Position numbers and translations under genes: made by a program
Notes under the pieces: model-generated
Told to the model about the DNA's origin: nothing
The model's input: only the letters and a program-made list of their open reading frames with translations
The model's database searches: none
Shown here: positions 801-21,304 of the stretch, one piece after another
How the letters are laid out: each line of letters begins with the position of its first letter
Position numbering within the stretch: position 1 is the first letter of the stretch
Source of the DNA: a virus
DNA: 22,732 nucleotides
IMG/VR virus record: IMGVR_UViG_3300025809_000134
Coordinates: 1-22,732 of that record
Strand: one strand, 5' to 3'

Positions 801-1608
801 AATAAAAACAACACAGAAAGTTAGTCCTAATGTAACACATTTAATGATTCCAGATACTCAATGTAAACCTGATGTCGATATGTCTCACCTAAGTTACATA
901 GGTCAGTACATAGTGGATAAGAGACCTGAAGTTATTGTACACATAGGCGACCACGCTGATATGCCTTCTCTAAGCTCCTATGACAGGGGCAAAAAGAGTG
1001 CAGAGGGTAAGAGGGTTCACTTAGATATTGAAGCCAGTATAGAGGGCATGAGGCTTCTTCTACAGCCCTTACATGAGCTACAGAAACAACAGAAGAGGAA
1101 CAAGAAGAAAGTCTATACACCTAAAATGGCTCTCACTCTTGGTAATCATGAAGAACGTATCATGAGACACGCAGATAACAATCCAGAGTTAGCAGACTTC
1201 TTATCTTATGATAACTTGAAGTACAAAGAATTTGGATGGGAAGTACACGATTACTTGAAACCTGTAATTATTAATGGTGTAGCTTATTGTCACTTCATGG
1301 CTAATCCTTTCTCAGGTAAACCTTATGGAGGCACTGCTCAGAATGTATTGAAGCAGGTAGGCGAGAGTTTCTGTGTAGGGCATAAGCAGACACTAGATGT
1401 AGCTACAAGATTCTTACCTGCTAGTGGTAGACAACAGTGGGGTATTATAGCTGGAGCATGTTATGCTCATGATGAAGGTTACAAAGGACATCAAGGTAAC
1501 CATCATTGGCGAGGTATAGTAGTTAAGCACAACGTACAGGACGGTAGCTTTAACCCTATGTTCGTTGACTTAGATTATTTGAAAGAGAGGTACGAATCAC
1601 ATGATTAA
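787..1608 (+). CDS. Calcineurin-like metallophosphoesterase
   Basis: Predicted dinuclear metal-dependent phosphoesterase acting on a phosphomonoester, phosphodiester or nucleotide/nucleic-acid end; the substrate cannot be read from the sequence. Counting from ATG 787 (273 aa), the family blocks appear in order: D23-T-Q25 (usually D-x-H), G54-D55-H-A-D58, G109-N110-H111-E112, H159 in YCHF, and G198-H199-K-Q201 where G-H-x-H is usual. The D-x-Q and GHxQ forms swap two metal-ligand histidines for glutamines. The start at 787 is preferred because AGAGGA (773-778) lies eight bases upstream; ATG 781 is too close. A further in-frame ATG at 697 follows AGAGGAGA but would add about 30 poorly protein-like residues and overlap most of a 58-aa ORF. 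The stop overlaps the next gene by eight bases, so translation is probably coupled. Confidence 0.85.
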   Translation: MKIFKIKTTQKVSPNVTHLMIPDTQCKPDVDMSHLSYIGQYIVDKRPEVIVHIGDHADMPSLSSYDRGKKSAEGKRVHLDIEASIEGMRLLLQPLHELQKQQKRNKKKVYTPKMALTLGNHEERIMRHADNNPELADFLSYDNLKYKEFGWEVHDYLKPVIINGVAYCHFMANPFSGKPYGGTAQNVLKQVGESFCVGHKQTLDVATRFLPASGRQQWGIIAGACYAHDEGYKGHQGNHHWRGIVVKHNVQDGSFNPMFVDLDYLKERYESHD

Positions 1609-2089
1609 CTTCAAACAGTTCAAAGACCACGTAGTGATTCCTACGTTGAAGTACTTAGAGAACGAGATACCTTATAGTGATGAAGCTGTAGACCTCCTCA
1701 TGATGACTGCTGCACATGAGAGTAAAGGCGGTAAGTTCCTAAGACAAGTGGGAGTACCTGATGGTGTAGGAGCTTATGGTGTCTATCAAATGGAGTTAGA
1801 AACAGCAGATGATATTTGGTCTAACTTCCTAGACTACAGAAGCTTAGGTAAAGTCATTGACGATGTAGTAAGTAGTATTAGTGAAGATAGTTTGATTACT
1901 AACCTTACTTACGCTACAGCTATGGCAAGAGTGCATTACTACAGAGTACCCCATGCTATACCAACGAAGGGTGATAGCGGTTACTTAGATAAGCTTGGTA
2001 GGTATGCTAAGAAGCATTACAATACTCCATTAGGTAAAGCTACTAGCAGTAAGTACGTATTAGATTATTTAGAGTGGAGGGATAGTTAA
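1601..2089 (+). CDS. Lysozyme/lytic transglycosylase-like protein (putative endolysin)
   Basis: A 162-aa protein likely to have a lysozyme/transglycosylase-type fold and to cleave peptidoglycan. The evidence is a block beginning AAHES with E40 as probable catalytic glutamate, then GVGAYGVYQME (57-65), which resembles the 'G-A-x-G-x-x-Q' block after the catalytic Glu in SLT-type enzymes, and then DDIW and FLDYR. I recall phage proteins with the same E...GALGIYQMEP..DIW..YLRYR layout, usually annotated as hypothetical or lysozyme-like. There is no signal peptide or membrane segment, so a holin or other route would be needed for export if it is the endolysin. It could instead be a virion-associated enzyme. 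The ATG at 1601 follows AGAGAGG (1584-1590) and overlaps the metallophosphoesterase end. It sits in the metabolic rather than the morphogenetic operon. Confidence 0.55.
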   Translation: MINFKQFKDHVVIPTLKYLENEIPYSDEAVDLLMMTAAHESKGGKFLRQVGVPDGVGAYGVYQMELETADDIWSNFLDYRSLGKVIDDVVSSISEDSLITNLTYATAMARVHYYRVPHAIPTKGDSGYLDKLGRYAKKHYNTPLGKATSSKYVLDYLEWRDS

Positions 2090-3672: not shown

Positions 3673-3960
3673 TTACCATTTAACCTTATCAGCCCAGTAT
3701 GCTGCACTCATTTTACCTTTAGCTATATTTTTAGCATGACGGGCTTTGAATGATTTGCGTTTAGCTTTCATCTTCTCTCCTTCACCAGCCTTAGCCTTCC
3801 CTGCTGTAGATGCACCTTGCTCCCCGAATCGGATAGTCTTAATTTTATCTCCGACCTTTGCTACAACTACATGGCTCTTAGTAGGATGACTAGGAGTCTT
3901 CTTAGGTTTATTGAAACCTGATACTCCTGCTCTACTTAATCTAGAATCTTTCTCTGGCAT
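3673..3960 (-). CDS. DUF6321-like basic phage protein
   Basis: A 95-aa, very lysine-rich protein. Three blocks match a phage family that I recall as DUF6321: RLSRAGVSGFNKPKKTPSHP (8-27), then KSHVVVAKVGDKIKTIRFGE (28-47), and KSFKARHAKNIAKGKMSAAY near the end with the terminal WADKVKW. Function is unknown; the charge suggests nucleic-acid binding, which is inference. It lies one base after the stop of the HNH-like gene, whose final codons (GAGGAAG) supply its ribosome binding site, so the two are translationally linked. It sits at the end of the virion operon, which suggests either a packaged DNA-associated protein or a late DNA-processing factor. Confidence 0.8.
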   Translation of the reverse strand: MPEKDSRLSRAGVSGFNKPKKTPSHPTKSHVVVAKVGDKIKTIRFGEQGASTAGKAKAGEGEKMKAKRKSFKARHAKNIAKGKMSAAYWADKVKW

Positions 3961-3961
3961 A

Positions 3962-4255
3962 TTACTTCCTCTTACCTTTACGTTTCATTCCAGCGTAGCT
4001 ACCGTTGTCTGCTCTATTAGCAGTCTTAGAACGTACCCTAGTATTACTCTCCTCCTTACTTCCTCCGTTACGTAGAGGCTTCTTGTGGTCTATATCCTTA
4101 CCATCCCCTTTAGAAACCTTACCTTTCTTTATAGCTTGGTTACGAGCTTTGTTCCTAGCTGCACGTTCTTTCTTGGCTTTATCTGTAGAATTATAAGCTC
4201 TCTGTTGTTTACTTCTCGCAGATGCAGTAGCTGATGTTTCACCTTTCTTTGGCAT
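3962..4255 (-). CDS. HNH-endonuclease-like basic protein (97 aa)
   Basis: A highly basic protein (Lys/Arg-rich from end to end) with an HNH-like core: D56-H57 in DGKDIDHKKPLRNGGS, N71 in SNTRVRS and N80-R81 at the position of the last histidine, giving an H-N-N pattern. There is no zinc-binding CxxC pair, so it belongs to the short zinc-free HNH type often annotated in phages, or to a derivative that binds DNA without cutting. Residues 1-45 look like a disordered basic arm. The ATG at 4255 follows AGAGGAA. It is the first gene after the gap of about 125 bases downstream of the ejection protein genes and is paired with the DUF6321-like gene. HNH proteins next to terminase can help packaging; here it lies far from terL, so that role is not supported by position. 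Confidence 0.7.
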   Translation of the reverse strand: MPKKGETSATASARSKQQRAYNSTDKAKKERAARNKARNQAIKKGKVSKGDGKDIDHKKPLRNGGSKEESNTRVRSKTANRADNGSYAGMKRKGKRK

Positions 4256-4380: not shown

Positions 4381-6135
4381 TCATTGATTAGCTACTACAA
4401 AACTTCTAACAATCTCTGTTTTTAAGTAGTTAGTCTCCTCCTCTGTAGCCCCTAACTTATCTAAACTATTAAAAAACTCATCTATAAACTTATTATATGA
4501 CTTAACATTATTACTAATAGCACCTCTTTGATTCCAAGTTACTTTTAAAGTTTCAGGGTTTACTGCATTAAGTCTATTAACTGCTTCGACTGTGTCAAGA
4601 CTTACTCTGTTTCCTCTAGGAGGAAGTGCCCTTGTCAGAACAGAAGGATCAGCAGGTACTTTTTCTGTTAGCAGTTGGGGTATAGCTCTACGTAAAAACT
4701 TCTCCCCATAATCTAAAATACCCCCTATAACCTTATCTTGTTTTTCAGGGGAAAGTAAGTAAGAAGGCGTGCCTTTAGAAATAGCTTGCACGTAAGTAAC
4801 AAACCCACCTTTAGTAAGCATCTCTTCTTGAGTAGCGTCACTTCCTTGTAAATCCTCTAACACAACGAGTTCAGTATAAGCATCCTTTACATCTTTAGGA
4901 ATATTCTCATCAGCATTTTTAAAAAGGTCTTTAGTTCTTTGAAAACTTAATTGTTTATTTTCATTGTCTTTTTTAATATCTTCATCTGTAAATAAATCAG
5001 CAGGTGTTTTTGGAGAACCTATTCTAAATACTGCTGTCATATCTGCTCCTATAGCCTCCTCCCCTATAGCATTTTCTGTCATGGCATTTACGAATGTGTC
5101 ACCAAGAGCGCCTTGCAGATACCCTTTAGGTAAAAAATCAGAAAACATCATGAGTGTAGCAAGGTTTTTTTGTGAAGGAGTTCCTGCATTTTTCATATTT
5201 AGTACGGTGTTTGATACTTGATATTGCTTTAAGTTTGAACTTGTTGTTTTAGCATCCTCCATAGAATATCTTCTTTTAGTAATATCAAAGATGGCTAACT
5301 CTGACCCCAACATTTCTTTTGCTTGGTTAGGTGTAAGATAGATATCATTAGCTGCTGCTGTTTTAACAGCTTGACCTATGTATAAAGATTTTAATTCATC
5401 TGTTTTCCTCATACCCTCTACTAGTGCAGCAGGATCATTAAAATCCATATTATTAAATATTTTACGGGTCTCAGCTTTTGCTGTATTATCTGTTACAGAC
5501 GTAAAATCTACAATAAACTTAGCTTTCGCTATATCCATTTTCTTTGAAGATACCGTCAATTGACTTGATTCTAAGTCAAGAACGTCTTTTTTATATTGCG
5601 CGTTAGCTTTCTTTGCATTACCAAGTAAGATAAAGTTCGTTAATTCCTCATCTGTTCCGTTTATATCAAAGTCTGGAGGGAGATAAGGAGCTAGAAGGCT
5701 GAGGTTTGCTTGAAGATTTTCTCTATCTTCTGCTTTTTTTTCTAAAGCGGCATCTGCTGAACTCATTGCTTCGGCTGAAGTCACACCTGTAACTTTGTTT
5801 GTCTCTGTTCTAATACTCCACCATTCTTCAGCGGAATAGTTTCTTCCTAGTCTTGTCTCTCTTAGATCTATATCTGTAGAAGATACACCTTGTTTGCTTA
5901 ACATCCTAATCTGTCTAAGTTTTTCTTGTCCAACAGCCATGCGTTGAGCTTGTTCAGACATAGCTTCTTTAGCTAGAGTTAACTCTTTTTTAGCTTGATT
6001 CTTAGCATAAAACTCTAAACCTGTAGATGCTAGGTTAACTAAATCTGCGCCAAGGCTGTTAGAAGGCGCAGCAAACTGAGGATTGCTTGATGCAGTTTTG
6101 GTTAATTGTGTTATATCTTTAGTGAACTCTGTCAT
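4381..6135 (-). CDS. Probable internal virion (DNA ejection) protein, 584 aa
   Basis: Large, predominantly α-helical protein rich in Ala, Lys, Glu and Asn, with no cysteines seen and no signal peptide. An early helical region (about residues 40-75, KKELTLAKEAMSEQAQRMA) has coiled-coil character. It follows a giant ejection protein gene with one base between TAA 6139-6137 and ATG 6135, as T7 genes 15 and 16 are adjacent (in the opposite order). The start is ATG 6135 (MTEFTKDITQL), read from GGAAA about six bases upstream; a TTG at 6147 is in frame but coincides with that binding site. No enzymatic motif is visible. By position and composition it is assigned to the ejected core or DNA-translocation set, without a clear family match. 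Confidence 0.6.
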   Translation of the reverse strand: MTEFTKDITQLTKTASSNPQFAAPSNSLGADLVNLASTGLEFYAKNQAKKELTLAKEAMSEQAQRMAVGQEKLRQIRMLSKQGVSSTDIDLRETRLGRNYSAEEWWSIRTETNKVTGVTSAEAMSSADAALEKKAEDRENLQANLSLLAPYLPPDFDINGTDEELTNFILLGNAKKANAQYKKDVLDLESSQLTVSSKKMDIAKAKFIVDFTSVTDNTAKAETRKIFNNMDFNDPAALVEGMRKTDELKSLYIGQAVKTAAANDIYLTPNQAKEMLGSELAIFDITKRRYSMEDAKTTSSNLKQYQVSNTVLNMKNAGTPSQKNLATLMMFSDFLPKGYLQGALGDTFVNAMTENAIGEEAIGADMTAVFRIGSPKTPADLFTDEDIKKDNENKQLSFQRTKDLFKNADENIPKDVKDAYTELVVLEDLQGSDATQEEMLTKGGFVTYVQAISKGTPSYLLSPEKQDKVIGGILDYGEKFLRRAIPQLLTEKVPADPSVLTRALPPRGNRVSLDTVEAVNRLNAVNPETLKVTWNQRGAISNNVKSYNKFIDEFFNSLDKLGATEEETNYLKTEIVRSFVVANQ

Positions 6136-6136
6136 A

Positions 6137-9100
6137 TTATTTTCCAAATGCTTTATCTATTTCAGGGATTATTGCTTTAATTACTGTAATCTGATTATCT
6201 ATTTGCCTTCTCATTTCATCTGTACTCGCATCTTCTTTAAGAGATTGCAATTCTGGAATGATTTCTTCTAAAGTTCTTTGATCTAAGTAAGGTTTAAAGT
6301 ATCCCATAAAATCTTTACCTGTATCAGGAGATACGTAACGAGACAGTGATTCAACTATTTCTCCTCTTTTTAAGACATCTACAGAGTTTGTTGCTATACC
6401 TGAATATTTACTAGCTATTTCTAATACTCCTAAATAACTATTTTCTTTAACTAGATCTCTGTGCATTGCCCTAGAAAGAACTTGAGATAAAGTTTTAACT
6501 GCATCGTTATTAGCCGCAGAAGTAGAGCTAAATTCTTGCCACCTATCCTGTATAGCAGTAGGTGTAAAGTTACCAAGTTGCGCTAGAGATTCATACTTAG
6601 TAACAGGTAAGTTCCCAGACAGACTTGATTTGTAAACATAGTTACCAAGATGATAAGACATATAAGCTCTTTGATAATCACTTATTCCTGCAATATTACC
6701 TAGAACTTCGGATATTATATGACTAGCTTTTTCATCGTATTCAAAACCTTCTGCCCCAGATATAGCATATACAGCAGTTGCTGTTTTCCCTAGCACACCC
6801 ACAACATATCCTGCTGCACCTGTTACAGCTAATGTCCCATTCAATGCAAATTCTTTCACATGATAATCATAAAAAGTATCTACTACAGAAGCAGGATGCA
6901 TCTTACTTGAAAAATCAACTTGCCCTTCAAACCCCATAGCATTAACTGAAGAGTTTATAACTTGATTCATTATATTCCCCTGCAAAGTTTCTCTAGCTAT
7001 AGGATTCTCTATTTGATTAATAGCGTCTTCTACTTTAGAGCCAAGGAGTCCTCCAAAAATACCTTGAGGCCCAAAGATCGCATATGTAGCAATTAAAGAA
7101 CCTGCCGCTTGCAAATGACTACTAGCCAAAGGAGACACCCTTTCAGGAACTTCTTTACCTAAAGCTTTTAATACAGGGTCTTTAGTGAGCTTTAATACAG
7201 GGTCAACAATTACATCTAAGTAAAGTTTGTGTACGTGCTGAGTAAACTGAAACATAGGACTTAGTAAAGAAGACTTTGATTGATAGTCAAATTGATTTAC
7301 AGAGTTCTGAGTTTGAGTAATTTTTTGAGCATTGAAACTCATGTCAGCTTTAGTCGAAGCATCAAACTTCTTTCCGTTTTTAATTACGTTTTTTTGGAAC
7401 TCGGACATATAAGCAGCTAAGTTTACTAACTTAATAACTCCCTCTTGGCCTGCTTTAGAAGCTGTAAAAGGAGACATCACAAGATTTTTACCTACATTAA
7501 AAGCATTCCCTTTTTTTGTAGAAGCAGCGTCCAAACTGCTTTTTTGAACAAGCTTCATAAAATCATCTGACATACCAACAGCATCCCAGAGACCGTTATT
7601 TTTCATTTCTTCTATAAAATTTCTTGCAAGCTTCTCATCAATACCCATAGCTTTAGCTAAATTTTTAATATTTTTAGGTGTAGTATTTTTTAACGCTGAA
7701 AGAGTAGGGATTAAATTCTTAACCGTATGAGCCATTTCTACGGGATACTTTTCTGCTACATATATTAATTGAGCTGTATTCTGTATAATTTGAAATATAG
7801 GTCTTCCTACAATCACCATCTGTGTAGCAAAATTTTGAATAGCACCTGATATTCCTTGACTGTCTACACCAATCTTTACATTGCTTTTCATAAAGTTATT
7901 TATAATTTTATAACCTTCACCTTCTTGAACCTTTGATATCCCCTCAATATAGTTGTGCCATTGCTTTGCTTTCTGAGCTACATCTGTAGGTATGCCAGAC
8001 GTATCAATCATGTCTTCAAACCTGCCGCTGTAAGATGTCCCACTTTTATTCTTAAAATAGTTTTCAAATTGTTTAAGAAACCTTGAACGTAAACTATTTA
8101 TAATATCGACATCAAGCTGTCTTTCTACACTACCAATAGTTCTTGATAAAGATTCTAAAACACCAAGAGTTTCAGCAGCCTCTAGTCCATCTGAACCTCT
8201 AAGTATTTCTCCTCTTTGCTTTGTATGTACTCCTGCATATCCATATTGAACGCTACTCTCATCCCCGTATATCCCATCAAGGTCTTTGTTTTCTCTTGCT
8301 CTCGTATAAGTAGCTTCCACACCTTCTTTTTCCAAAAGGTCAGCAGTTGCTTTCTTTGCTTGTTCTTCTGTTTTAACAATGTGCGTTGTTGTAAAGCTCT
8401 TCTCTTCAACTCCGTCAACAATACGTGAAACAGGGGTCTTAACAGTCCATCCAGTTTCTTTATAAAATCTATCTATATGACCAGCTCTTTGATTTAAAAC
8501 AATAGCAGGAAGTTCTTTTATATCTTTTTTATTAGAAATAACAAGTCTTCGGTATTCCCCAGACTTATCTATTATAGCTTTATCTAATTTTATAACAGTT
8601 TGTGATGGATCTAGGCTTTCAACAAGAACATCTTTTTTAGTCTTTATATCATAAACTTTTTTGACTTCAGGTTTAAGAACAACAGAACCTCTATATACTT
8701 CATCCCCAATTGTTACATCCTTAATATCTCTAGCAACAAGAGATTTTCGATATTTTTCATTTCTTATTTGATAAATATCATCCATAAGTTTTTGTATACG
8801 AAGATATCTTTTATAAGTATTTTGAGATTCTTCAGCAGTTCTCCCAACAATTACAGCAAACTCATCTACACTTTTAATCCAATCTTGACCATCGTTGTCT
8901 GTATATTTTAAAGCGTGAGTAAGACTATTTACATCTTCAGAACTCATTGGTTTTAAACCTGCCTTTGCAAGAATACTATTATCCTTAGAAAAAATAGATT
9001 CTAACTCCGACTGCATCTTTTGTGCTTGAGACCTGTTATACCCTTTTAAGGCAAAAACCCCTTTTAATACATCTTCTCCCAGCCTTCTAATTGGATCTAA

Positions 9101-11434
9101 TATATTAGAAGAAATATTAGTTATATTGTTTACATCTACGTATAGATTTTTTGTATCGTATCTAGGATTAAACTCATGCTTCTGCTGTACTTCTATATAC
9201 CACTTACCATTCCTTTTTACGACAACTTTCTTATCCACACCAATCAGAGCATTATTCATAGCTTCTTCAGCTAGAGAAAACGATTCAAAACCCTCATCAC
9301 CATCACCAAATAGGTATTTAAAGTTACCAAGAGAGGCTTCATCTGCGTTGTCTGTTAGTGTTACGGGTTTACCTATTGCTACTGAGCTATCCTGTAATTT
9401 TAAAGAACTCCCTGTAGAACGAGCCAAAGCTTTAGCTCTTCTTGCCCCTGCTACAAGAACATCTTCATCTACTAAAATTAATTCATTAACAACATTATTT
9501 AAGTTAGGGTATCCTAAATCTGTAGTATCAGAAGGTGTAGGTAAAAGTCTTGCAGCTATAGCTTGAGGAGAAAGTCCTACCTCCTCTGCGAAGTTTTTTA
9601 AACCTTTTGATTTAACTCCATTATGAAAACTAGATAATTTTTCTTTAACAATTTGGTCATAAGCAGAAGTTTCCGTTCTTGTATCATACACAAACTCTAC
9701 TTTACGCTCTCCTGTTGGCTCAAATAAATCCTCATCTGCTGCTCTCCCGTCTTTCTTAAAAGCATCTAATCTTGAAAGTTTAGACTCCGCTGTAGCAGCA
9801 ACATCGAACTCATTAACCATTTCTTGAACAGCACCTTGCCTCCGAGCAATAGCATCTAGTTGTTTTTGTTTTTCTTGATTTACAATTTTTAAAGCATCTT
9901 TAAACTTTATTTTCTTTTCTTTAGCCAAAGCTCTGGCTTCTGTATTTGTATTAGTTTTAGAAACCTCGTCTTTTAATTTACCAAGTTCCTTTTTTTCTTT
10001 TTCTAAATTTATACGAAACTCACGAGTTCCTTTTTTATCAGCAGCTTCAGATAAATCTTTTCTTATATCTCTTACATTTTCTGATATTTTTACACTGGTC
10101 GGTTGCTTAACAACAAGGCTATTACGAGCTTCAGTAAAAGGTACATAAGACAATCTTTCTGGAGTTAATACCGTATCTTTATCAGAAGGAAAAATACGAG
10201 AAGCAAGGAATTTCATTAAGCCTTTAATGCCTCTAACATAACCTTTGAACTCTGCTCCAAAAATTGTTGCGTTAATAGCCGTTTCTAATATATCGGAATA
10301 CTGTGCATCTGTCGTTTCATTCCCTTGTATAAAACCTAACCCACCTTCTCTAATCGCACTTTGCAATCCATCGAGTTGATCTATAACTAATAAAGAGTTA
10401 TTGTTAGATATCAGTAAAGTTTCTGTTTCTAGCCAAGTCTCTACTAGTTTATTAAAAACTTCTTCTTGCCTTTCAACTGGCGCACTCTTTATCTTGTCAA
10501 GAGCTTCTGATAATCCATTATTGAATTTAACCCATTCTTCTGTAGCCACTGTAGTTGGTAGAGCGTATTCTACTACATCAAAAAGAACTCCTAAAAGATT
10601 TGTATTCTCCCATACACGTTCTTGCATCTTAGCTAACTCTGTAGACCTAACAGCATCTTTTTCTATATTAATAGATAAAGAACGCATTCGATCAGAAGGT
10701 ATGTTAAGAGATTCAACAATAAAATTCTGTCTCAAATCCAGCATTGAAACAGGTTTACGTGGTGTATTTGCAGCATCTTGTAAAATAGTACCTAAATCAT
10801 AAGAATTTTGTGCTAAGTCTACTTCTTTTGATATTCTAGAAATTTCTAGTTCTTGGTTTGAATTTGATATTAAAGATACGGCTTCTGAAATAGAAGCTGT
10901 GCCACCAGATTGGAATTCCTCTGATAACTCTTCTCGACCTCTTTCTAGAAGAGGAGATAGCAACATCGACATTTCAGAAGAACCTATCTTACTCATAGCC
11001 GTATCAACAATAATTTCATCTTCAAATAAAGCAGCAAAATCTAAATCAGGTAGAGATTGAAACAACCCTCCCGAAAAAGATGTATCTACAACAGCATCAG
11101 CTTCTCTTTGTTCCCCCACCTTACCACCTTGTAAAGGCTCTCCACTTCCTCCACGTACAGCATTCTCTTCACCTTCCTTCATTTCAAGATCTTCAAAAGC
11201 AGTCTCTAGTGATTTTACAGCTTCAGGATTAAATCGGCTTAAGGTGCTATTCCCTGCTTCTGTAGTAGGTTTATCTGAAACAAGTTCTGTTTCTAATGCT
11301 CCAGCCTTCCTAATATCATCTAGAGTATAACCTTTAGCTTTTAAGTCTTTAGCTTTTTCTACAACCTTAGCTTGATTATCTTTAGCTTCAGGATGAGACT
11401 CAATCGTGCCTTCTTTTGTTTCTACTTTTCTCAT
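6137..11434 (-). CDS. Giant internal virion/DNA-ejection protein (1765 aa)
   Basis: The longest gene in the window, about a third longer than T7 gp16 (1318 aa). It follows a gp14-like gene, so a role as ejected core protein forming the trans-envelope DNA conduit is likely. Visible parts are an acidic low-complexity N-terminus (to about 120), a charged coiled-coil-like stretch (about 450-545), a long mixed middle, and two hydrophobic segments near 1438-1462 (AAGSLIATYAIFG..) and 1530-1560 (LAVTGAAGYVVGVLG..) that could insert into membrane. I found no transglycosylase E...Q/GLMQ motif or other lytic domain, unlike T7 gp16. The ATG at 11434 follows AGTAGGTG; the upstream stop is 12 bases away. 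Base composition across 4.4-11.4 kb looks more AT-rich than the capsid and terminase genes. The assignment rests on context and architecture rather than a clear sequence match. Confidence 0.7.
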   Translation of the reverse strand: MRKVETKEGTIESHPEAKDNQAKVVEKAKDLKAKGYTLDDIRKAGALETELVSDKPTTEAGNSTLSRFNPEAVKSLETAFEDLEMKEGEENAVRGGSGEPLQGGKVGEQREADAVVDTSFSGGLFQSLPDLDFAALFEDEIIVDTAMSKIGSSEMSMLLSPLLERGREELSEEFQSGGTASISEAVSLISNSNQELEISRISKEVDLAQNSYDLGTILQDAANTPRKPVSMLDLRQNFIVESLNIPSDRMRSLSINIEKDAVRSTELAKMQERVWENTNLLGVLFDVVEYALPTTVATEEWVKFNNGLSEALDKIKSAPVERQEEVFNKLVETWLETETLLISNNNSLLVIDQLDGLQSAIREGGLGFIQGNETTDAQYSDILETAINATIFGAEFKGYVRGIKGLMKFLASRIFPSDKDTVLTPERLSYVPFTEARNSLVVKQPTSVKISENVRDIRKDLSEAADKKGTREFRINLEKEKKELGKLKDEVSKTNTNTEARALAKEKKIKFKDALKIVNQEKQKQLDAIARRQGAVQEMVNEFDVAATAESKLSRLDAFKKDGRAADEDLFEPTGERKVEFVYDTRTETSAYDQIVKEKLSSFHNGVKSKGLKNFAEEVGLSPQAIAARLLPTPSDTTDLGYPNLNNVVNELILVDEDVLVAGARRAKALARSTGSSLKLQDSSVAIGKPVTLTDNADEASLGNFKYLFGDGDEGFESFSLAEEAMNNALIGVDKKVVVKRNGKWYIEVQQKHEFNPRYDTKNLYVDVNNITNISSNILDPIRRLGEDVLKGVFALKGYNRSQAQKMQSELESIFSKDNSILAKAGLKPMSSEDVNSLTHALKYTDNDGQDWIKSVDEFAVIVGRTAEESQNTYKRYLRIQKLMDDIYQIRNEKYRKSLVARDIKDVTIGDEVYRGSVVLKPEVKKVYDIKTKKDVLVESLDPSQTVIKLDKAIIDKSGEYRRLVISNKKDIKELPAIVLNQRAGHIDRFYKETGWTVKTPVSRIVDGVEEKSFTTTHIVKTEEQAKKATADLLEKEGVEATYTRARENKDLDGIYGDESSVQYGYAGVHTKQRGEILRGSDGLEAAETLGVLESLSRTIGSVERQLDVDIINSLRSRFLKQFENYFKNKSGTSYSGRFEDMIDTSGIPTDVAQKAKQWHNYIEGISKVQEGEGYKIINNFMKSNVKIGVDSQGISGAIQNFATQMVIVGRPIFQIIQNTAQLIYVAEKYPVEMAHTVKNLIPTLSALKNTTPKNIKNLAKAMGIDEKLARNFIEEMKNNGLWDAVGMSDDFMKLVQKSSLDAASTKKGNAFNVGKNLVMSPFTASKAGQEGVIKLVNLAAYMSEFQKNVIKNGKKFDASTKADMSFNAQKITQTQNSVNQFDYQSKSSLLSPMFQFTQHVHKLYLDVIVDPVLKLTKDPVLKALGKEVPERVSPLASSHLQAAGSLIATYAIFGPQGIFGGLLGSKVEDAINQIENPIARETLQGNIMNQVINSSVNAMGFEGQVDFSSKMHPASVVDTFYDYHVKEFALNGTLAVTGAAGYVVGVLGKTATAVYAISGAEGFEYDEKASHIISEVLGNIAGISDYQRAYMSYHLGNYVYKSSLSGNLPVTKYESLAQLGNFTPTAIQDRWQEFSSTSAANNDAVKTLSQVLSRAMHRDLVKENSYLGVLEIASKYSGIATNSVDVLKRGEIVESLSRYVSPDTGKDFMGYFKPYLDQRTLEEIIPELQSLKEDASTDEMRRQIDNQITVIKAIIPEIDKAFGK

Positions 11435-11446
11435 TTATTACACCTA

Positions 11447-11914
11447 CTAAGGGTTTAAATCTATTACAGGAGCGCCACCATCAGCCCTTGGAGTCGTACT
11501 ATCTGGCCTCATGCTATTACCCATCATTGCTAAGTTAGCTACAGAATTAAACGTAGAAGCTTGCCCTGCATATTGATTAGCTTTAGCCATATTCTGTGCA
11601 ATACGAGTTTGAAAGAAATCCATTTGATTTGAGAACTGCATATTCCCTGCTGTAAGAGAACCTACGGCACTGTACCCACCTTGAGCTGCACTACTCTGTA
11701 ATGTCCCTCCAGTAGCTGCTCCTTGAACTATCTGTGCTTGAGCTATACGTTGTTGTCTTACTGCTGCCATTTGCTCTCTAGCTTGCTGCGCTCTCCTTAC
11801 ACCCTCTTGGTTACGAGCCGCTTTCTTCTGTTGTTTACGTGACTTTTCTCCCGCCACAATACTACCCACTGTACCAACAGAGGCTACCACTAGAGCTGTT
11901 ACTCCAAAAGTCAT
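11447..11914 (-). CDS. gp14-like internal virion protein (155 aa)
   Basis: Short protein with the architecture of T7 gp14-type internal core proteins: an N-terminal hydrophobic helix (VTALVVASVGTVGSIVAG, about 5-22), a basic Gln/Ala/Arg-rich helix (about 24-65), a Gly/Ala/Ser-rich middle and a second helical region near NQMDFFQTRIAQNMAK. In T7, gp14 is ejected first and forms a pore in the outer membrane. Its place directly upstream of the giant ejection protein fits. The ATG at 11914 overlaps the TGA of the cupin-like gene (ATGA), with GGAGAT as binding site inside the preceding gene. The Ala/Gln-rich sequence gives little for family assignment, so the call relies on architecture and synteny. 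Confidence 0.72.
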   Translation of the reverse strand: MTFGVTALVVASVGTVGSIVAGEKSRKQQKKAARNQEGVRRAQQAREQMAAVRQQRIAQAQIVQGAATGGTLQSSAAQGGYSAVGSLTAGNMQFSNQMDFFQTRIAQNMAKANQYAGQASTFNSVANLAMMGNSMRPDSTTPRADGGAPVIDLNP

Positions 11915-12357
11915 TTTAATATCTCCAATAGTTCTTTTTTATCTGTAATAATATGCCTGTTTGCCACTTCTTCGGTATCAGTGCAGTTATCTAAATTTAA
12001 ATGTACAGTAATCCAAGTACAGTCCGTATCAGCATATACACATCTTTTAGCGTGAGGTGTAGAAGTAAATACGAAAGGAGCTACCGCTTTAAATTCACCA
12101 TCTTGACTTACTATCGTACTTGTACCTTCAGCTAGAATAGTAAAATGAGAATACTTATGCATCTCGCCTACGACAGCTACTCCTTCAGGAATAAACAAAG
12201 ATCGTAGGTACATACCATCTGCAAAATAATGGATAGGCTCTAAATCTTCTTTTGTAAGTTTTTCATCTTCTGGAATTTCCTCAATAGCTTCTTGTAAAGA
12301 AAAAGCTTTTTGTAAAATAGTCTGGCCTTCTGCAAACTCCATCATTTCACTAATCAC
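11911..12357 (-). CDS. Cupin-fold-like phage protein (148 aa)
   Basis: The central part (about 48-125) reads as a cupin β-barrel: MYLRSLFIPEGVAVVGEMH, then FTILAEGTSTIV with a dG turn, then APFVFTSTPHAKR and CTWITVHLN. The two cupin motifs are recognisable, but the first has H-x-x-x-H rather than H-x-H, so metal binding is uncertain. Similar phage proteins ending in 'W-x-T-V-H' are known to me only as uncharacterised cupins. It starts at GTG 12357, with AGAGG six bases upstream, and overlaps the nozzle gene's TGA (GTGA); it in turn overlaps the gp14-like gene by four bases. Sitting between tail and ejection-protein genes, it may be a virion component, perhaps a tail-associated sugar-binding or cap domain, or a soluble enzyme. 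The role is inference. Confidence 0.65.
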   Translation of the reverse strand: MISEMMEFAEGQTILQKAFSLQEAIEEIPEDEKLTKEDLEPIHYFADGMYLRSLFIPEGVAVVGEMHKYSHFTILAEGTSTIVSQDGEFKAVAPFVFTSTPHAKRCVYADTDCTWITVHLNLDNCTDTEEVANRHIITDKKELLEILK

Positions 12358-13598: not shown

Positions 13599-14597
13599 TT
13601 ATTCTGGATCTAGAAATTCATCAAAGGGTGGCTTGTAAGGAGGAATACCACCACCACCAGAAGGAGTATCAGGGTCTTCAGGGTCTATAACATCAGGCTC
13701 ATCTGGATTATATGTAGGAGTTCCTGAAAAGTTTATAGTGCCTATAGGAACTAATGTTGTGCTTGGCGCACCATCTTCTTCAGGATTAAGTAATTTAGCA
13801 TCTCTGTTAAAATCATTAATGTCGTAAACATAATGACCTCTCCCTGCTTTACTGTTCCCGAAGTTAGCCCCTTTAACATCTTTGGATGAGAAGACTGTAT
13901 CCCCACCTTCATCTATAATAATTCCTACAGAAGCTACTTGTGCATTACTAGGATAGACTCCTGTAAAATCTTTAAAGGCAGTTGTTACAAGTTTTTCTGT
14001 TTTGTTATCTTCTAAATCTGCTCTTGTAAGATGCCAATCAGCATTAAATAAATTGTACTTATGGTTGTCTGAAAGATTAATAGGTTGCTCGGATATTTCT
14101 AGACCATCATCTACTAATTCAAAGTCACGTACATTTACCTTAACACTGCTAACAAAAATTTCTTTTGTAAGTTCTTTGTACTCACACATAACAGGGTTAG
14201 TACCTTGGTCTGTAGTAATAACAAGGAAGTTAGTTGTTTCAGCTATTTGTGTTTTTACTACAGCAGAAGAAATTGCAACCTCTGCTATAAATGTAAAGTC
14301 ATCATCTACCGCATGAAAACGAAGTTTGGTTTGTGGTGTGTCGTCTGTAACTGTAACACATACTAAAGATGGGCCTCTCCAATAGAATACATTTTCTACA
14401 GCAGCAAACCCTCCAGTAATAACAAAAGGAGTTACTAAATCTTGGAAACCTAAACGTCTTTTACGAATCAATCCATCTTTATTAATTACAAAATTTAATT
14501 CATCTGATGTGAAACTTTCAGGAAAAGCAAGAGCTGAAGTTTCGGTATTTAAACCTTTGATTAAAGAAAGATAATCTTTTTGTCCTGAAGCCCTCAT
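13599..14597 (-). CDS. Tail nozzle protein, N-terminal half (T7 gp12-like)
   Basis: A 332-aa protein whose N-terminus (GLNTETSALAFPESFTSDEL, about 15-34, then NKDGLIRKRRLGF) matches the pattern at the start of podophage nozzle proteins, 'G-x-N-x-E-x-x-x-x-x-P-x-x-x-x-x-E-x-N...D-G-x-x-x-R-R-x-G'. Residues about 40-290 are β-rich. The last 40 residues are a Pro/Asp/Gly linker (NPDEPDVIDPEDP, then SGGGGIPPYKPP), ending at a double stop TAA-TGA. In single-chain homologues such a Pro-rich linker precedes the propeller; here the chain ends and a second gene begins. The ATG at 14597 follows AAGGAT, and the preceding stop is two bases away. With the next gene it is inferred to build the hexameric tail tip. 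Confidence 0.72.
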   Translation of the reverse strand: MRASGQKDYLSLIKGLNTETSALAFPESFTSDELNFVINKDGLIRKRRLGFQDLVTPFVITGGFAAVENVFYWRGPSLVCVTVTDDTPQTKLRFHAVDDDFTFIAEVAISSAVVKTQIAETTNFLVITTDQGTNPVMCEYKELTKEIFVSSVKVNVRDFELVDDGLEISEQPINLSDNHKYNLFNADWHLTRADLEDNKTEKLVTTAFKDFTGVYPSNAQVASVGIIIDEGGDTVFSSKDVKGANFGNSKAGRGHYVYDINDFNRDAKLLNPEEDGAPSTTLVPIGTINFSGTPTYNPDEPDVIDPEDPDTPSGGGGIPPYKPPFDEFLDPE

Positions 14598-14599
14598 AA

Positions 14600-14899
14600 C
14601 TAATCCTTATACTTACCCATTAAAAACTTCTTAATGGCACTAGGTTGTTTATGTTTATCTGGAACTTCCAAATTGTTTACTTCTGCCCACTTCAATAAGT
14701 CTGCTTTATTATTTAAGCTTTCTAAATCTGCACTCTTTACAACAGAGGATGCAGGGGCTTTTTTACTTAGCTCGTAAAGTTCCCAAGCTCTCGCTGCTTC
14801 ACTCTTTCTAATAAAGCATCCACTAAGTGCTTCAGCAACTTTACCACTTCGACTCCACCTATAAAAACCATCAAAGATTAATTTGTAATCAGTATCCAT
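14600..14899 (-). CDS. Small protein with HeH/SAP-like C-terminus (99 aa)
   Basis: A 99-aa helical protein placed between the adaptor and nozzle genes. The C-terminal 35 residues (NKADLLKWAEVNNLEV, then PDKHKQPSAIKKFL) have the helix-extended-helix pattern of HeH/LEM/SAP-like modules, which often bind DNA or protein. The N-terminal part (FDGFYRWSRSGKVAEAL) is helical with no recognised domain. It starts at ATG 14899, overlapping the adaptor stop by one base (TAATG), and its stop is two bases from the next gene. A role in head-tail joining or in holding the DNA end at the portal is possible from position only. Confidence 0.65.
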   Translation of the reverse strand: MDTDYKLIFDGFYRWSRSGKVAEALSGCFIRKSEAARAWELYELSKKAPASSVVKSADLESLNNKADLLKWAEVNNLEVPDKHKQPSAIKKFLMGKYKD

Positions 14900-15749: not shown

Positions 15750-16718
15750 TTAGACAGGCGTTGCTAGAGTAACCAATGCTTCAGGACGTTTAAGCGCGAA
15801 GCCATAACGACAAGTAGCAGACCATTCATCACGTTTCAGGTTAGTGTTACGGAAGAATTCAGTCTCAGGACGCTGACGGATAACACCCATGAACGGCATT
15901 GAAGTGTCATTAGCCATAGACATTGCAACACAACCTTTACCAGTAATTGCACCACCACCCGTACCATCACTTTTGGCAAGAGTCTCAGCAGTAATAGCTG
16001 GCAAGTTGTGACTTACCATGATGTTAATACCAGCAATGTTACGAACAATATTAAGCTTATCACCAAAGCCAGTTTGCACTAGACCTTGTACATCGAAGTT
16101 AAACTGTGAACCATTAGTTACTTCAGTGATGTTTAAAAGCTTATTAAGTTCGTACTCGGTTTCAGGAGTAACTATTAACATACGATTTTCGGTAGGGATA
16201 TAAGCCTTATCGAAAGCGTACTTGATGAACATAATGTCATCAATAGTTATAGCACCACCAGTGCCACTACCTTTCATGCGGTGAGGAACACCACCAATAG
16301 CATTGTTATTACCAAGAGTCTGAGAGTTAGCTGTAGCTAGAACAGCAGTCTCCATATCTGTAGCCATAGCAATACCAGACTTGTGAACATTCTCTTGATA
16401 GAATGCTTCTGACTGATGCGCATCTTGCTTCATACGGTCTGTTACAAAGAAACCATCCTGCTTATAGGCAGTAACAGTAAGGTCTTTACGAGAAGTAGTC
16501 ATACCGTCATAGGTAATCTGAGTATTCTCTGTGTAATCTGTAACATCACGATCTGCCGTCAAGGTAACATTAAGAGTGTCACCATCAGGGAAGATACCTG
16601 TTTTGTCATCGAACAAAGGACGACCAACTAACCAGTCATCGAACTGCTTCTCTAAAGAAACTTGATATAGCTCTTGACGAACTAGGTTAGGGACTTGTGC
16701 ATAAGTAAAATTTGACAT
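15750..16718 (-). CDS. Major capsid protein (HK97-fold)
   Basis: A 322-aa protein that forms the head shell. It starts MSNFTYAQVPNLVRQELYQV and continues with a β-hairpin-like arm (GDTLNVTLTADRDVTDYT), a helix rich in charged residues (VTDRMKQDAHQ), the P-domain-like block VTPETEYELNKLL, and an A-domain-like end (WSATCRYGFALKRPEALVTL), the usual arrangement of podophage HK97-fold coat proteins. It lies directly after the scaffold gene (13 bases) and before the adaptor. The visible ribosome binding site (GAGAA, about eight bases before ATG 16718) is weaker than most here, unexpected for the most abundant virion protein. Its GC content looks somewhat higher than that of its neighbours. No slippery sequence for a T7 gp10B-like extension was recognised near the stop. 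Confidence 0.9.
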   Translation of the reverse strand: MSNFTYAQVPNLVRQELYQVSLEKQFDDWLVGRPLFDDKTGIFPDGDTLNVTLTADRDVTDYTENTQITYDGMTTSRKDLTVTAYKQDGFFVTDRMKQDAHQSEAFYQENVHKSGIAMATDMETAVLATANSQTLGNNNAIGGVPHRMKGSGTGGAITIDDIMFIKYAFDKAYIPTENRMLIVTPETEYELNKLLNITEVTNGSQFNFDVQGLVQTGFGDKLNIVRNIAGINIMVSHNLPAITAETLAKSDGTGGGAITGKGCVAMSMANDTSMPFMGVIRQRPETEFFRNTNLKRDEWSATCRYGFALKRPEALVTLATPV

Positions 16719-17675: not shown

Positions 17676-17953
17676 TAGACTTTCCAATCTAGCTTTTTTA
17701 TCAACTCTCTTAATAATCTTCTTTGAGCTTTATTTTTTATAGATACATAAGAGAATTGGAATTTTGAAATAAAGTCATTTTTAGATTCATCTTCTTTTAC
17801 TAATTTTTCTACAGAATCCTCTAAATGGATTATAAAAAGTTCTGTAAAATTATTTTTATGCCACCTTTTATAACGTTCAATATCTTTTTTCTTTTCTTCT
17901 GGATTCAAAGCACTAAAATGCTCTGACATAAAAGAAGGTACTTTAAAGCTCAT
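17675..17953 (-). CDS. Conserved hypothetical protein (92 aa)
   Basis: A helical, highly charged 92-aa protein with no cysteines or membrane segment. It has a block KRWHKNNFTELFIIHLEDSV (about 29-48) and an end FQFSYVSIKNKAQRRLLREL (about 66-85) rich in Lys/Arg; I have seen similar phage proteins but know no function for them. It starts at ATG 17953 with GGAGG six bases upstream and overlaps the portal gene's last 11 bases; its stop overlaps the zinc-ribbon start by one base. The gene looks more AT-rich than the portal gene. A role near head assembly or host takeover is possible from its site but unsupported otherwise. Confidence 0.7.
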   Translation of the reverse strand: MSFKVPSFMSEHFSALNPEEKKKDIERYKRWHKNNFTELFIIHLEDSVEKLVKEDESKNDFISKFQFSYVSIKNKAQRRLLRELIKKLDWKV

Positions 17954-19694
17954 CCTCTTCCTCCATCATTCCCATCTCTAGACTAGTTGGTTGTGAACTA
18001 GATTTAACCATTTCTTGTTCAGCCATCATTTGTTTCTCTTGCATTTCTAGATTCTCATCTATAGAAGCAAACTTGTTAATAAATGCGTATTGATCGAATC
18101 CATATAAACTCTCGACTGTCTTAGCCAAGTTATATGTATTAATATGAGGAGCTACCATCTGTGCAATGTTTGTGTTAGTTAACTGTGTTAAACCTTGTAG
18201 CTGTTGTAACTGTCTACTAAAACGTCTACTACCCATTGGGAGTAACTTACCATTAGCACTAAGGTCTTCTTCTGTAATGCTTGTAGTAAGTAAAATACCT
18301 TCCTCATCTTCTTCTAGAACTTTAATAATACTAGAGAAGTTATCCTTAGCTATTCGCATCTCAGCTTGTACAAGAGGCTCTAACAAGTCTTCTTCTACTT
18401 GAGATACTTTATTAATAAATCCTCTAAATGCACCGTCATTAAGACTCTGTACTTCTGTAGCAGTCTTTTCTCCTGCTGTCCTAAAACCAGCTAACTGTTG
18501 AGGTAGTCTTGCACTTGTACGGGCTAAGTCCCTGTGCATCATTATCTGGTTATCAAAAGTAAGTACAGTACTGTCAGGACGAATGTCTGAAACACTTCCA
18601 CCTTCAGGCATAATGTACTTCGTATGACCTGTTACTTCGTCATATATCTCTTCTACATCACCAACATAAGACCTATCTGGATAAATGAATTTGTCAATAG
18701 CATCATTCTTACCATTCTCCCTGTGGTTAATCATGTAGTTGATCCCCACAACTTTATCTAATGGGCCTTGACTCCATAGATTATCAGGTCGTGCAGTCCA
18801 TCCACCTTTAAATATAGAAGGCTTAATTTCTTGCTTATCTAATACAACAGTATCTTTATCAACAATAACAATACAACGTTTCTTATAAACCTCTGTTTCT
18901 ACTTCATCAAGGATGTCTCCGTAAAACCAAAGTAACTCTACGTAACCAGAACTGTAGTACTCATCTAAACTACCAAAACCTTGTGGTACATATTGCTTTT
19001 CTTTATAACGTTCAGCGTAGTCTCTAAAACCTCCTGTACGCCTCTGTAAGAGACTCTTAGTTTCTTCTGGAGTTATCACTTTATCTTCGTCAGAAATACT
19101 CTCTAAGAACTCTACAAGCTCTCCTACTGATACTAGACTACGTACTATTTTAGGAGCTTTATTAAAATCAGTATATGTTGGGTTAAATACAATATCAAAA
19201 GGACTAATTCGTTTAACTGCTGGCCCTGAATAACCTGATACGTATCCATCTTCTGTATCCGCTGTATCATTCTTATAATAAGCTTGAGCAAAACAATTAC
19301 CATAACGTACTAAGTCATCAATCACTTTACGCATTTGGATGTTAAAGCCATTAAGTGCATGACACTGTTTTATATAACTTTGAACTTTGCCTCGTAATTG
19401 CTTTGTAATTGCATTAATCTCAAAACCTTTCCATCCTAACCAGTCTTCATGTGGAAACATTGTACTGTAGACAATAGCTAAAAGGTCTTCGTGTAACTCT
19501 GAAAGAATAGGAAGGTGTGTCTTGTGGTCAAAATTGTCTCCACCTTCTAACATGCTTGTATCTGTAGCAAGTAAATAGTTATCTATTTCTGCCCATAGAG
19601 CCATAGCTGTGGTACGTGACGAATTCCACTCTTCCCAGTAACTAGCTATATCACCAGCTAAAGCAGCCTTGTTATTATAATTAAGGGTAATCAA
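17943..19694 (-). CDS. Portal protein
   Basis: A 583-aa protein, the dodecameric vertex ring through which DNA enters and leaves the head. Features are an N-terminal helix with the pattern YWEEWNSSRTTAMALWAEID (about 19-38), a wing-like middle (RISPFDIVFNPTYTDF), the stem/crown helix region (AGFRTAGEKTATEVQSLND, then FRGFINKVSQVEEDLLEPLV) typical of podophage portals, and a Met/Glu/Gln-rich acidic C-terminus. It starts at TTG 19694, overlapping the terminase TGA in a TTGA junction, with AGGAG nine bases upstream. The first ATG is near residue 31, inside a conserved helix, which argues for the TTG. It lies between terL and the scaffold, as expected for packaging-head modules. Confidence 0.9.
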   Translation of the reverse strand: MITLNYNNKAALAGDIASYWEEWNSSRTTAMALWAEIDNYLLATDTSMLEGGDNFDHKTHLPILSELHEDLLAIVYSTMFPHEDWLGWKGFEINAITKQLRGKVQSYIKQCHALNGFNIQMRKVIDDLVRYGNCFAQAYYKNDTADTEDGYVSGYSGPAVKRISPFDIVFNPTYTDFNKAPKIVRSLVSVGELVEFLESISDEDKVITPEETKSLLQRRTGGFRDYAERYKEKQYVPQGFGSLDEYYSSGYVELLWFYGDILDEVETEVYKKRCIVIVDKDTVVLDKQEIKPSIFKGGWTARPDNLWSQGPLDKVVGINYMINHRENGKNDAIDKFIYPDRSYVGDVEEIYDEVTGHTKYIMPEGGSVSDIRPDSTVLTFDNQIMMHRDLARTSARLPQQLAGFRTAGEKTATEVQSLNDGAFRGFINKVSQVEEDLLEPLVQAEMRIAKDNFSSIIKVLEEDEEGILLTTSITEEDLSANGKLLPMGSRRFSRQLQQLQGLTQLTNTNIAQMVAPHINTYNLAKTVESLYGFDQYAFINKFASIDENLEMQEKQMMAEQEMVKSSSQPTSLEMGMMEEEDEL

Positions 19695-21304
19695 GCTCTT
19701 TTTCTCCTACTAAGAAATCGGTTAGAAGCATTAACAACAGTCCGTTCTCTTTTATTTGTTGCAAATTTAGGTTTGGCTAGTCGTTTACTATTACTAACAG
19801 CTATCCATACAGCATCTTTTAAATCATCGTGCGGTGGCTTTGTTAAGTGAAGTTCTTCTTCTAACAATCTTGTGTACCCACCTTTCGTATGGTAAACACT
19901 TTTATTTCTGTAAAGAGGTTCAAATAACTGAGAGTTACGTTCTTCTTTTGTACCTTCTCTCTGGTTCTTATGTTGATGTTTAACTACCAACGTATGACCT
20001 GCTCTTCGTATCTCGTCTTGAATGAAATTAGCTACTACAGCACCACCAGCATTAGTCTCTACTGTTACTTCTCGGAAGTCCCAATACTCATGCATTGTAA
20101 TAAGCTTCTCATAATATATTTCTGCCTTAGCTGTTTGGAATCTTTGAAGGTCTAGTACGTATAAGTACCCTTCGTTATCCCAAGCTGTTACTGCAATGGA
20201 TGTGTAATCTCGTTTAACTTTACGAACACCACTGCCTTCACTAAATGCTAAATCCATACCACAAGCTAGTTTTAATTCTTTATTTCCGTAGAACCACCTG
20301 TTCTGCCTTTGCTCTAACAGATTAGGCTGGAGGTACATGAAACAATCTCTTGTAATCTTTGCTTCACTAGCCGCATTAGGGTCATTGTAGTACTGTGAGT
20401 AATACAGCTCTAAGTTAAATGCTTCAGACTTCTTTTTACTTAATTCTGTCTGATTAAAACCGTACCAATTACTATCTGGCATTTTAGTTCTAGGCCATAC
20501 AAAGTCACCTGTACCATCGTATCTTTTACTAGTTTCTACTTTACGCTCAAACCACTTCCATAATGGACGAGTCTCGGTGACAATACCTTCATCATCAAAT
20601 ATCTCGTATTCTTTTTCTTTCAAGGCTGCGTATAAATCATTATCTCCGTATCTTGTTCCTACCATCCACTTAATACTTCCTGTAGTGGCAATAGAAGCAT
20701 ACGACTGATAGACTTCTTTTATATCTTCTCGTTCAGCAGCACTACGGTAATTCTCGTTAGTAACCAAATCATCAAAGATACACATCTTGTAGTGCGCCCC
20801 TGTGTTGGTACTCTTAGCACTTGTAGCAGCAACTGTTGGGTCTTTCTCACTACGAGGTCTCTCAGGGTGGTCTACAGTTATTTCTGTTTTAGTCCAAGTT
20901 CCTAAAGACCTATGGTCGTATTCTTTAGTTCGAGGGTTAACTTCGTAGTTAAGCATCTCAGGCCAAAGCTCTCTGTAGGAATCACTCTTAAATATATTCT
21001 TAATAACTGTCAACTGTCTTTCAGACAAAGTTGGGTTAGAAGATACATATGTAACAGTAAACCAAGGGTATTTAGTAATAGCCCATGAAGACGCAACTGC
21101 TATACAAAAAGACTTCTGGTGGTCACGAGGTATCAATGCCGCAGCATTATCGCCTTGACCTGTTTCCATTGCTTCTTCTAGAGACCTCTGAAAGAAACGA
21201 AACATCTCTTCATGAACTTCTCCAAAGTACCTACTAGGAAACATAACTTGAGCATAAAAGAAAAGGTCACTCTCACAATCTTTCTTTAGTTGTTCAATAC
21301 TCAT
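19691..21304 (-). CDS. terL: Terminase large subunit (packaging ATPase/nuclease)
   Basis: DNA-packaging motor of 537 aa. The ATPase half has a Walker A variant I58-P-R-D-H-Q-K64-S65, a Walker B M174-C-I-F-D178-D179 (D179 in place of the usual catalytic Glu) and a coupling motif G216-T217-R. The nuclease half (RNase H fold) shows D351 in CGMDLAFS, E416 in VETN and D493/D494/D497 in HDDLKDAVW, the three metal-binding sites. The end is basic (NRFLSRRKRA), as expected for portal docking. The ATG at 21304 follows GGAAAG and overlaps the preceding TGA (ATGA). A smaller terminase candidate and a membrane-anchored protein lie just upstream, the order found in T7 (18, 18.5, 19). Confidence 0.95.
   Translation of the reverse strand: MSIEQLKKDCESDLFFYAQVMFPSRYFGEVHEEMFRFFQRSLEEAMETGQGDNAAALIPRDHQKSFCIAVASSWAITKYPWFTVTYVSSNPTLSERQLTVIKNIFKSDSYRELWPEMLNYEVNPRTKEYDHRSLGTWTKTEITVDHPERPRSEKDPTVAATSAKSTNTGAHYKMCIFDDLVTNENYRSAAEREDIKEVYQSYASIATTGSIKWMVGTRYGDNDLYAALKEKEYEIFDDEGIVTETRPLWKWFERKVETSKRYDGTGDFVWPRTKMPDSNWYGFNQTELSKKKSEAFNLELYYSQYYNDPNAASEAKITRDCFMYLQPNLLEQRQNRWFYGNKELKLACGMDLAFSEGSGVRKVKRDYTSIAVTAWDNEGYLYVLDLQRFQTAKAEIYYEKLITMHEYWDFREVTVETNAGGAVVANFIQDEIRRAGHTLVVKHQHKNQREGTKEERNSQLFEPLYRNKSVYHTKGGYTRLLEEELHLTKPPHDDLKDAVWIAVSNSKRLAKPKFATNKRERTVVNASNRFLSRRKRA

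Follow-up and report, generated by a model that had tools for sequence, protein, structure and literature searches.

The window analysed here, by which we mean the whole stretch of DNA, is a 22.7-kb linear viral record (a fragment) whose structural genes match PHROGs families for terminase, portal, capsid, tail and tail appendage. Next to these lies a cassette of three predicted ejection proteins, the largest of which is referred to below as the giant. The features on which the analysis draws are as follows.

1601..2089, plus strand: SLT-like endolysin of 162 aa (phrog_3108, profile match), the window's only wall-hydrolase candidate
4381..6135, minus strand: third protein of the cassette, 584 aa counted from ATG, without cysteine; like T7 gp15 in position and size
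6137..11434, minus strand: predicted giant ejection protein, 1765 aa, without cysteine; phrog_12003 core homology over residues 826-1660 (profile match)
6791..7096, minus strand: two Gly-rich hydrophobic segments of the giant, residues 1447-1465 and 1530-1548 (hydropathy)
9743..10027, minus strand: helical hairpin or coiled coil of the giant, residues about 470-564, an optional insert (pLDDT about 90, alignments)
11447..11914, minus strand: gp14-like small ejection protein, 155 aa, without cysteine (phrog_8168, profile match)
11911..12357, minus strand: 148-aa protein, cupin-like by eye only, in the position of a GNAT-like gene of relatives
15750..16718, minus strand: major capsid protein (PHROGs)
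17943..19694, minus strand: portal or head-tail adaptor (PHROGs)
19691..21304, minus strand: terminase large subunit (PHROGs)

The cassette runs in the order gp14-like protein, giant, third protein, and this order is kept in the annotated relatives examined (RIO-1, VpV262, Vibrio phages, ctOsX528, CVT22, GP100 and Pecta). The giant thus occupies the placement typical of phrog_12003 proteins, between a gp14-like gene and a third protein of 580-780 aa, downstream of the tail genes. A GNAT-like gene in VpV262, several Vibrio relatives and epsilon15 sits where the window has the gene at 11911-12357. On the same strand, the ejection genes are followed by two small, very basic, cysteine-free proteins (3673-3960 and 3962-4255), the second of which has a weak HNH-like match.

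The open reading frame at 6137-11434 is intact on the minus strand from its ATG, and a plus-strand reading was rejected as the wrong strand given the 117 stops found there. A PHROGs profile comparison matched residues 826-1660 to the "internal virion protein" family phrog_12003 at E 9.2e-24. Together with the conserved gene order, this match supports the proposal, made earlier from a sequence-only reading, that the protein is an ejection protein, and at 1765 aa versus 1318 aa it is indeed far longer than T7 gp16. A second viral contig holds an identical full-length copy, and homologues on viral contigs, at 28-77% identity, cover its full length or the greater part of it. A tblastn search of 50,697 phage records returned 37 matching records, all below 60% identity, from Vibrio, Pseudoalteromonas and oyster-derived phages that belong to Zobellviridae where taxonomy was checked. 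Using the RIO-1 protein as query added CVT22, Pecta, GP100, VpV262 and the unclassified ctOsX528, and using the giant of PQ867850 yielded no new locus. The phage carrying the giant is accordingly predicted to be marine, short-tailed and related to Zobellviridae. RIO-1 gp37 and VpV262 gp47, both of phrog_12003, share its core homology and gene neighbourhood. The window giant is about 20-26% identical to the phage records found; it exceeds that of RIO-1 (1607 aa) in length and has an N-terminus of its own as well as a coiled-coil insert.

The anatomy of the giant was examined by modelling residues 1-800 and 720-1765 with AlphaFold, which gave a mean pLDDT of 58. Usable parts were confined to two stretches: residues about 720-1050, most blocks of which reach about 80, and residues about 470-564. 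The latter, where the coiled coil noticed earlier lies, form long helices in the model (pLDDT about 90) and could be aligned with helical hairpins. The segment around this hairpin, 440-590, is absent or mostly absent in L033, L035, L036 and L038-L041. Two hydrophobic segments had also been proposed, and Gly-rich stretches are present; the Kyte-Doolittle profile places three 19-mers at the top, namely 1530-1548 (1.45), 280-298 (1.37) and 1447-1465 (1.32); most are rich in Gly, and by the usual cut-off they fall short of classical transmembrane helices. Residues 1447-1465 and 1530-1548 are a possible membrane-inserting part. Within the closer family, conservation begins near residue 280 and continues toward the C-terminus. 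Residues 1-90 are near-identical in the window giant, L011, L013 and L031, proteins that are merely 23-34% identical as wholes, and such a near-identical N-terminus on divergent giants suggests a recombination junction near residue 92.

Neither model matched the PDB at E 0.001 or less in Foldseek, and a PDB sequence search with the giant-family profile returned nothing below E 0.78. In BFVD, the C-terminal model matched known relatives and "Internal virion protein D" of Roseobacter phages CRP-4 and CRP-5. By fold, the giant weakly resembles LPD-named BFVD models, and the PF18857 (LPD38) profile matched 0 of 16 records, with the control genomes likewise silent. Most of the VIA-align rows shown were helical, either hairpins or repeats, or were small Tudor-like matches; none of the rows was a lysin, an absence that carries no weight against a hidden fold. 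Base composition had been read as more AT-rich here than in the capsid and terminase genes, and the difference holds (GC 34.7% in the giant, 41.4% in capsid, 38.4% in terminase, 36.7% in portal and 36.9% over the whole contig) without being peculiar to the giant, as the tail gene at 14899-15684 lies lower still at 33.5%.

The central claim of the sequence-only reading was that this protein shows no wall-degrading motif, in particular no transglycosylase glutamate motif, and the analysis confirmed it. No Pfam family reached its cut-off in the giant, the NCBIfam scan returned nothing, and nothing matched an SLT, lysozyme, amidase or peptidase; a regular expression for the usual shape of the SLT motif, the HExxH pattern and cysteine were all absent from its 1765 residues. 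The lack of cysteine also excludes CHAP and NlpC/P60 chemistry. Pfam controls on five ejection proteins detected the SLT domain of T7 gp16 (1.7e-31) and the lysozyme of SP6 gp36 (6.6e-10) and missed the lysin in two of the five (phiKMV gp36 and epsilon15 gp15), so a negative Pfam scan is insufficient alone. More sensitive per-genome searches with PF01464 and PF00959 found nothing in the window at E up to 10; as controls, PF00959 recovered phiKMV gp36 at 2.2e-8 and PF01464 recovered T7 at 5.8e-33 while failing to recover epsilon15. For the profile-profile check, hhalign was run on 18 slices, overlapping and at most 200 residues long, of which none resembled a lysin profile (best E 0.0095, at 4% probability). 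In that comparison the GH24 profile did pick up phiKMV gp36C (E 7e-6) and the SLT control (T7 versus epsilon15) failed, which leaves SLT less well excluded by the slices.

A divergent, unrecognised wall hydrolase inside the chain, likeliest in its variable N-terminal 600 residues, was the other alternative raised at the outset, and we regard it as improbable. It draws on the two control lysins that Pfam overlooked, on the poor modelling of the N-terminal half and on the PQ867850 giant, which bears a GH24 domain at the same end. Across alignments of giants, 22 of them in one, no Glu, Asp, His or Cys is invariant, and before residue about 130 the alignment is poor and the model of low confidence; these points, the missing cysteine and HExxH, and the negative slices, obtained even though the GH24 profile works on phiKMV gp36C, all stand against it. 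When two alignments, one of 22 giants and one of 16, were scanned with Pfam (37 different proteins, as the window's is in both sets), a lysin appeared in one, that of PQ867850. Of the two alternatives first proposed, the evidence thus favours a lytic step carried by another protein and lends no support to an enzyme within the chain.

The location of the enzyme in relatives was investigated by scanning the open reading frames of 38 loci (37 relatives and the window) with local SLT, GH24 and phrog_3108 profiles; because these profiles contain some of the sequences they found, Pfam serves as the independent evidence. At least 8 of the 38 loci, in about four lineages, carry a hydrolase in the cassette, a lower bound given that several loci are truncated. 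In the Melvirus PQ867850 (L016), whose giant belongs to the same family and position, the 1971-aa giant differs by an N-terminal GH24 domain (PF00959, E 2.3e-11, residues 23-139) with an intact E25-D34-T40 triad, a spacing that we take to be T4-lysozyme-like. In VPMCC5 (L018), the third protein is 782 aa versus 618 in 521E56, and its C-terminus is probably GH24 (E660-D669-T675; local profile E 3.5e-9, Pfam 0.0024 and below its cut-off). In ctOsX528 (L023), a cysteine-free SLT of 412 aa (1.8e-14) is encoded immediately behind the third protein, and five related contigs (L047, L048, L049, L050 and L052) have an SLT gene in the same place, confirmed by Pfam in L047, L049 and L050 (1.3e-13 to 3.9e-13) and found by local profile only in L048 and L052. 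The annotated SLT of phiEco32 is likewise a separate gene within the ejection region. The window cassette itself has no fused GH24, no GH24 in the third protein and no SLT gene after the cassette.

Several of these hydrolase genes and third proteins show further features. The ctOsX528 gene (14042-15277) joins its SLT to ART-PolyVal, an ADP-ribosyltransferase of polyvalent proteins (2.2e-12), and is possibly an ejected two-part effector. In L049 (11300-12874) and L050 (11297-12871) the SLT gene overlaps the end of the third ejection gene and has a C-terminal extension containing HEIQH, metallopeptidase-like and with no Pfam match. The third proteins of CVT22 (L025, 10959-13121) and L013 (11061-13316) carry similar-looking C-terminal extensions with no confident Pfam match.

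Since relatives with the same cassette place GH24 or SLT elsewhere and the window has an SLT-like endolysin, the favoured interpretation is that a protein other than the giant would carry the lytic step. A giant without a lytic domain is then the ordinary state, with the enzyme carried by relatives as a swappable module elsewhere. A review of the field indicates, in the part consulted, that the T7 gp16 lytic domain is phage-specific, can swap to a gp15 homologue and is absent in P22 (PMC8954989). Ejection proteins without a lytic domain are also already described for P22 and N4 in the parts of PMC8954989 and PMC12633501 consulted, so the original observation is accurate and ordinary; the plug-in pattern within the ejection cassette merits a second look.

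Taken together, we read 6137-11434 as the giant internal virion (ejection) protein of a Zobellviridae-like podovirus in which murein is cut by another protein or its cutting is dispensable, with a probability of roughly 70%. Counting against this reading are the low mean model confidence given above, the chance that another virion lysin is encoded beyond this linear fragment, the weak gp14-like profile match (P 0.0017, probability 15%), the gene order, which is 14-15-16 in T7, and hhalign profile comparisons that detected no homology to T7 gp16 or gp15 (E 0.34 and 0.59 against a three-sequence gp16 profile). The giant and T7 gp16 are alike as giant cysteine-free ejection proteins of three-protein sets and differ in the N-terminal SLT domain that T7 has (E 1.7e-31) and the window giant lacks; the third protein, for its part, resembles gp15 in position and size, with no profile homology found. 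P22 gp16 and N4 gp50, reportedly without a lytic domain in the sources as consulted, are comparable to the giant in being large cysteine-free ejected proteins, and N4 gp50, unlike the giant, is an RNA polymerase.

Two further explanations of the entry step concern proteins other than the giant. The 162-aa protein at 1601-2089 could be packaged and serve both entry and lysis: it is the sole SLT-like gene in the window, its copy is cysteine-free, and its family, phrog_3108, keeps HE, Q and E positions invariant and weakly matches PF01464 in five of eight members (best E 0.0011, below the curated cut-off where a bit score was given). The window protein alone has no Pfam match, a PDB search with it gave one chance-level match (E 0.54), and no match emerged from its profile comparison with T7 gp16. 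phrog_3108 matched 141 records, and several of the 30 listed are annotated "lytic murein transglycosylase" or "endolysin". With its gene on the opposite strand beside non-structural genes, the relatives' copies annotated as endolysins and cysteine absent in only 7 of 13 relatives, such a dual role seems unlikely to us. Somewhat less doubtful, and still a minority view, is that entry uses no dedicated murein hydrolase, the conduit exploiting existing gaps or host enzymes opening them. According to the parts of the literature consulted, P22 gp16 has no lytic domain and that of T7 is needed when murein is highly cross-linked (PMC8954989), and the N4 ejection proteins appear to lack one, with activity presumed in trans (PMC12633501); the presence of a hydrolase in about four cassette-bearing lineages argues instead for selection.

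On the reading of the giant as an ejection protein without its own lysin, the three cassette proteins would be packed in the head, like T7 gp14, gp15 and gp16, threaded largely unfolded through the short tail and reassembled into a conduit that spans the envelope. The giant may form the inner, membrane-inserting part of this conduit through the Gly-rich hydrophobic stretches near its C-terminus, while murein would be cut by a different protein or, under many conditions, need no cutting. The hydrolase would act as a plug-in, fused at one site or another in some lineages and maintained as a gene of its own in others. For the question of how ejection proteins get through the wall and refold beyond the cytoplasm, one conserved conduit cassette to which a hydrolase is variously added offers clean comparisons between relatives.

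The absence of cysteine was investigated across ejection proteins more broadly, and those of short-tailed phages proved to lack it in nearly every case, far more often than other virion proteins do. The three window proteins contain no cysteine in 2504 aa where 16.2 were expected (P 9.4e-8, a Poisson value that is a guide only, as related sequences are not independent), and eight other virion-region genes of the window contain 17 in 2631 aa. By rows, 35 of 37 giants and 20 of 22 third proteins are cysteine-free; by profile collection the figures are 36/36 for gp14-like proteins, 34/36 for giants, 12/12 for third proteins and 23/23 for scaffolds, versus 11/28 for capsid, 5/34 for tail and 0/36 for the C-terminal appendage. 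Cysteine is also missing from T7 gp15 and gp16, P22 gp7, gp20 and gp16, N4 gp50 (3500 aa), gp51 and gp52, all three ejection proteins of phiKMV and of SP6, P-SSP7 gp15 and gp16, and phiEco32 gp22-gp26. Among 114 open reading frames of at least 400 aa from 18 records, 34 are cysteine-free: 30 out of the 34 ejection proteins and 4 out of the 80 remaining frames, the ctOsX528 SLT-ART gene among the latter; ejection status was assigned from annotation, position and recall, with epsilon15 gp17 and T4 Alt counted as others.

Exceptions occur in both directions. T7 gp14 has one cysteine, the three epsilon15 ejection proteins have four, the Pecta giant two, the partial L041 giant one, the third proteins of 521E56 and T4S1-k141_776450 two each, and T4 Alt, which by its annotation enters the host together with the DNA, three. 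Conversely, proteins with no known ejection are also free of cysteine, namely the N4 coat and scaffold, T4 gp29, all 23 scaffolds, the P-SSP7 scaffold, phiEco32 gp15, gp18 and gp20, and LUZ24 gp60 and gp63.

Cysteine absence is in print for N4-type RNA polymerases: in the parts consulted, PMC3715699 notes that the 3398-aa polymerase of N4-like phages has no cysteine at all, and proposes that this is because the protein travels through tail and periplasm, and PMC3915230 states the same absence for the polymerases of its phages, citing Kazmierczak et al. The word "cysteine" was not found in the text seen of the review PMC8954989, nor was a general statement on cysteine-free ejection proteins found in the literature searched, which covered few subscription journals and was seen in part; the breadth of the pattern is also worth a second look. 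We consider it slightly better than an even bet that complete cysteine exclusion is a general signature of podovirus ejected proteins that cross the periplasm, travelling wall hydrolases included, and that the hydrolase is a cysteine-free plug-in moved among cassette sites. Cysteine may have been purged because disulfides would trap a chain that crosses the oxidising periplasm in unfolded form; the earlier remark on N4-type polymerases would then grow into a prediction, open to testing, on how unfolded chains cross an oxidising compartment. If the signature is general, cysteine-free giant open reading frames would help to recognise the proteins, enzymes among them, that uncharacterised phages eject. 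A single cysteine lies at position 2 in all four of the small ejected proteins seen to have one: T7 gp14 and gp6.7 (L053), epsilon15 gp14 (L058) and P-SSP7 033 (L060).
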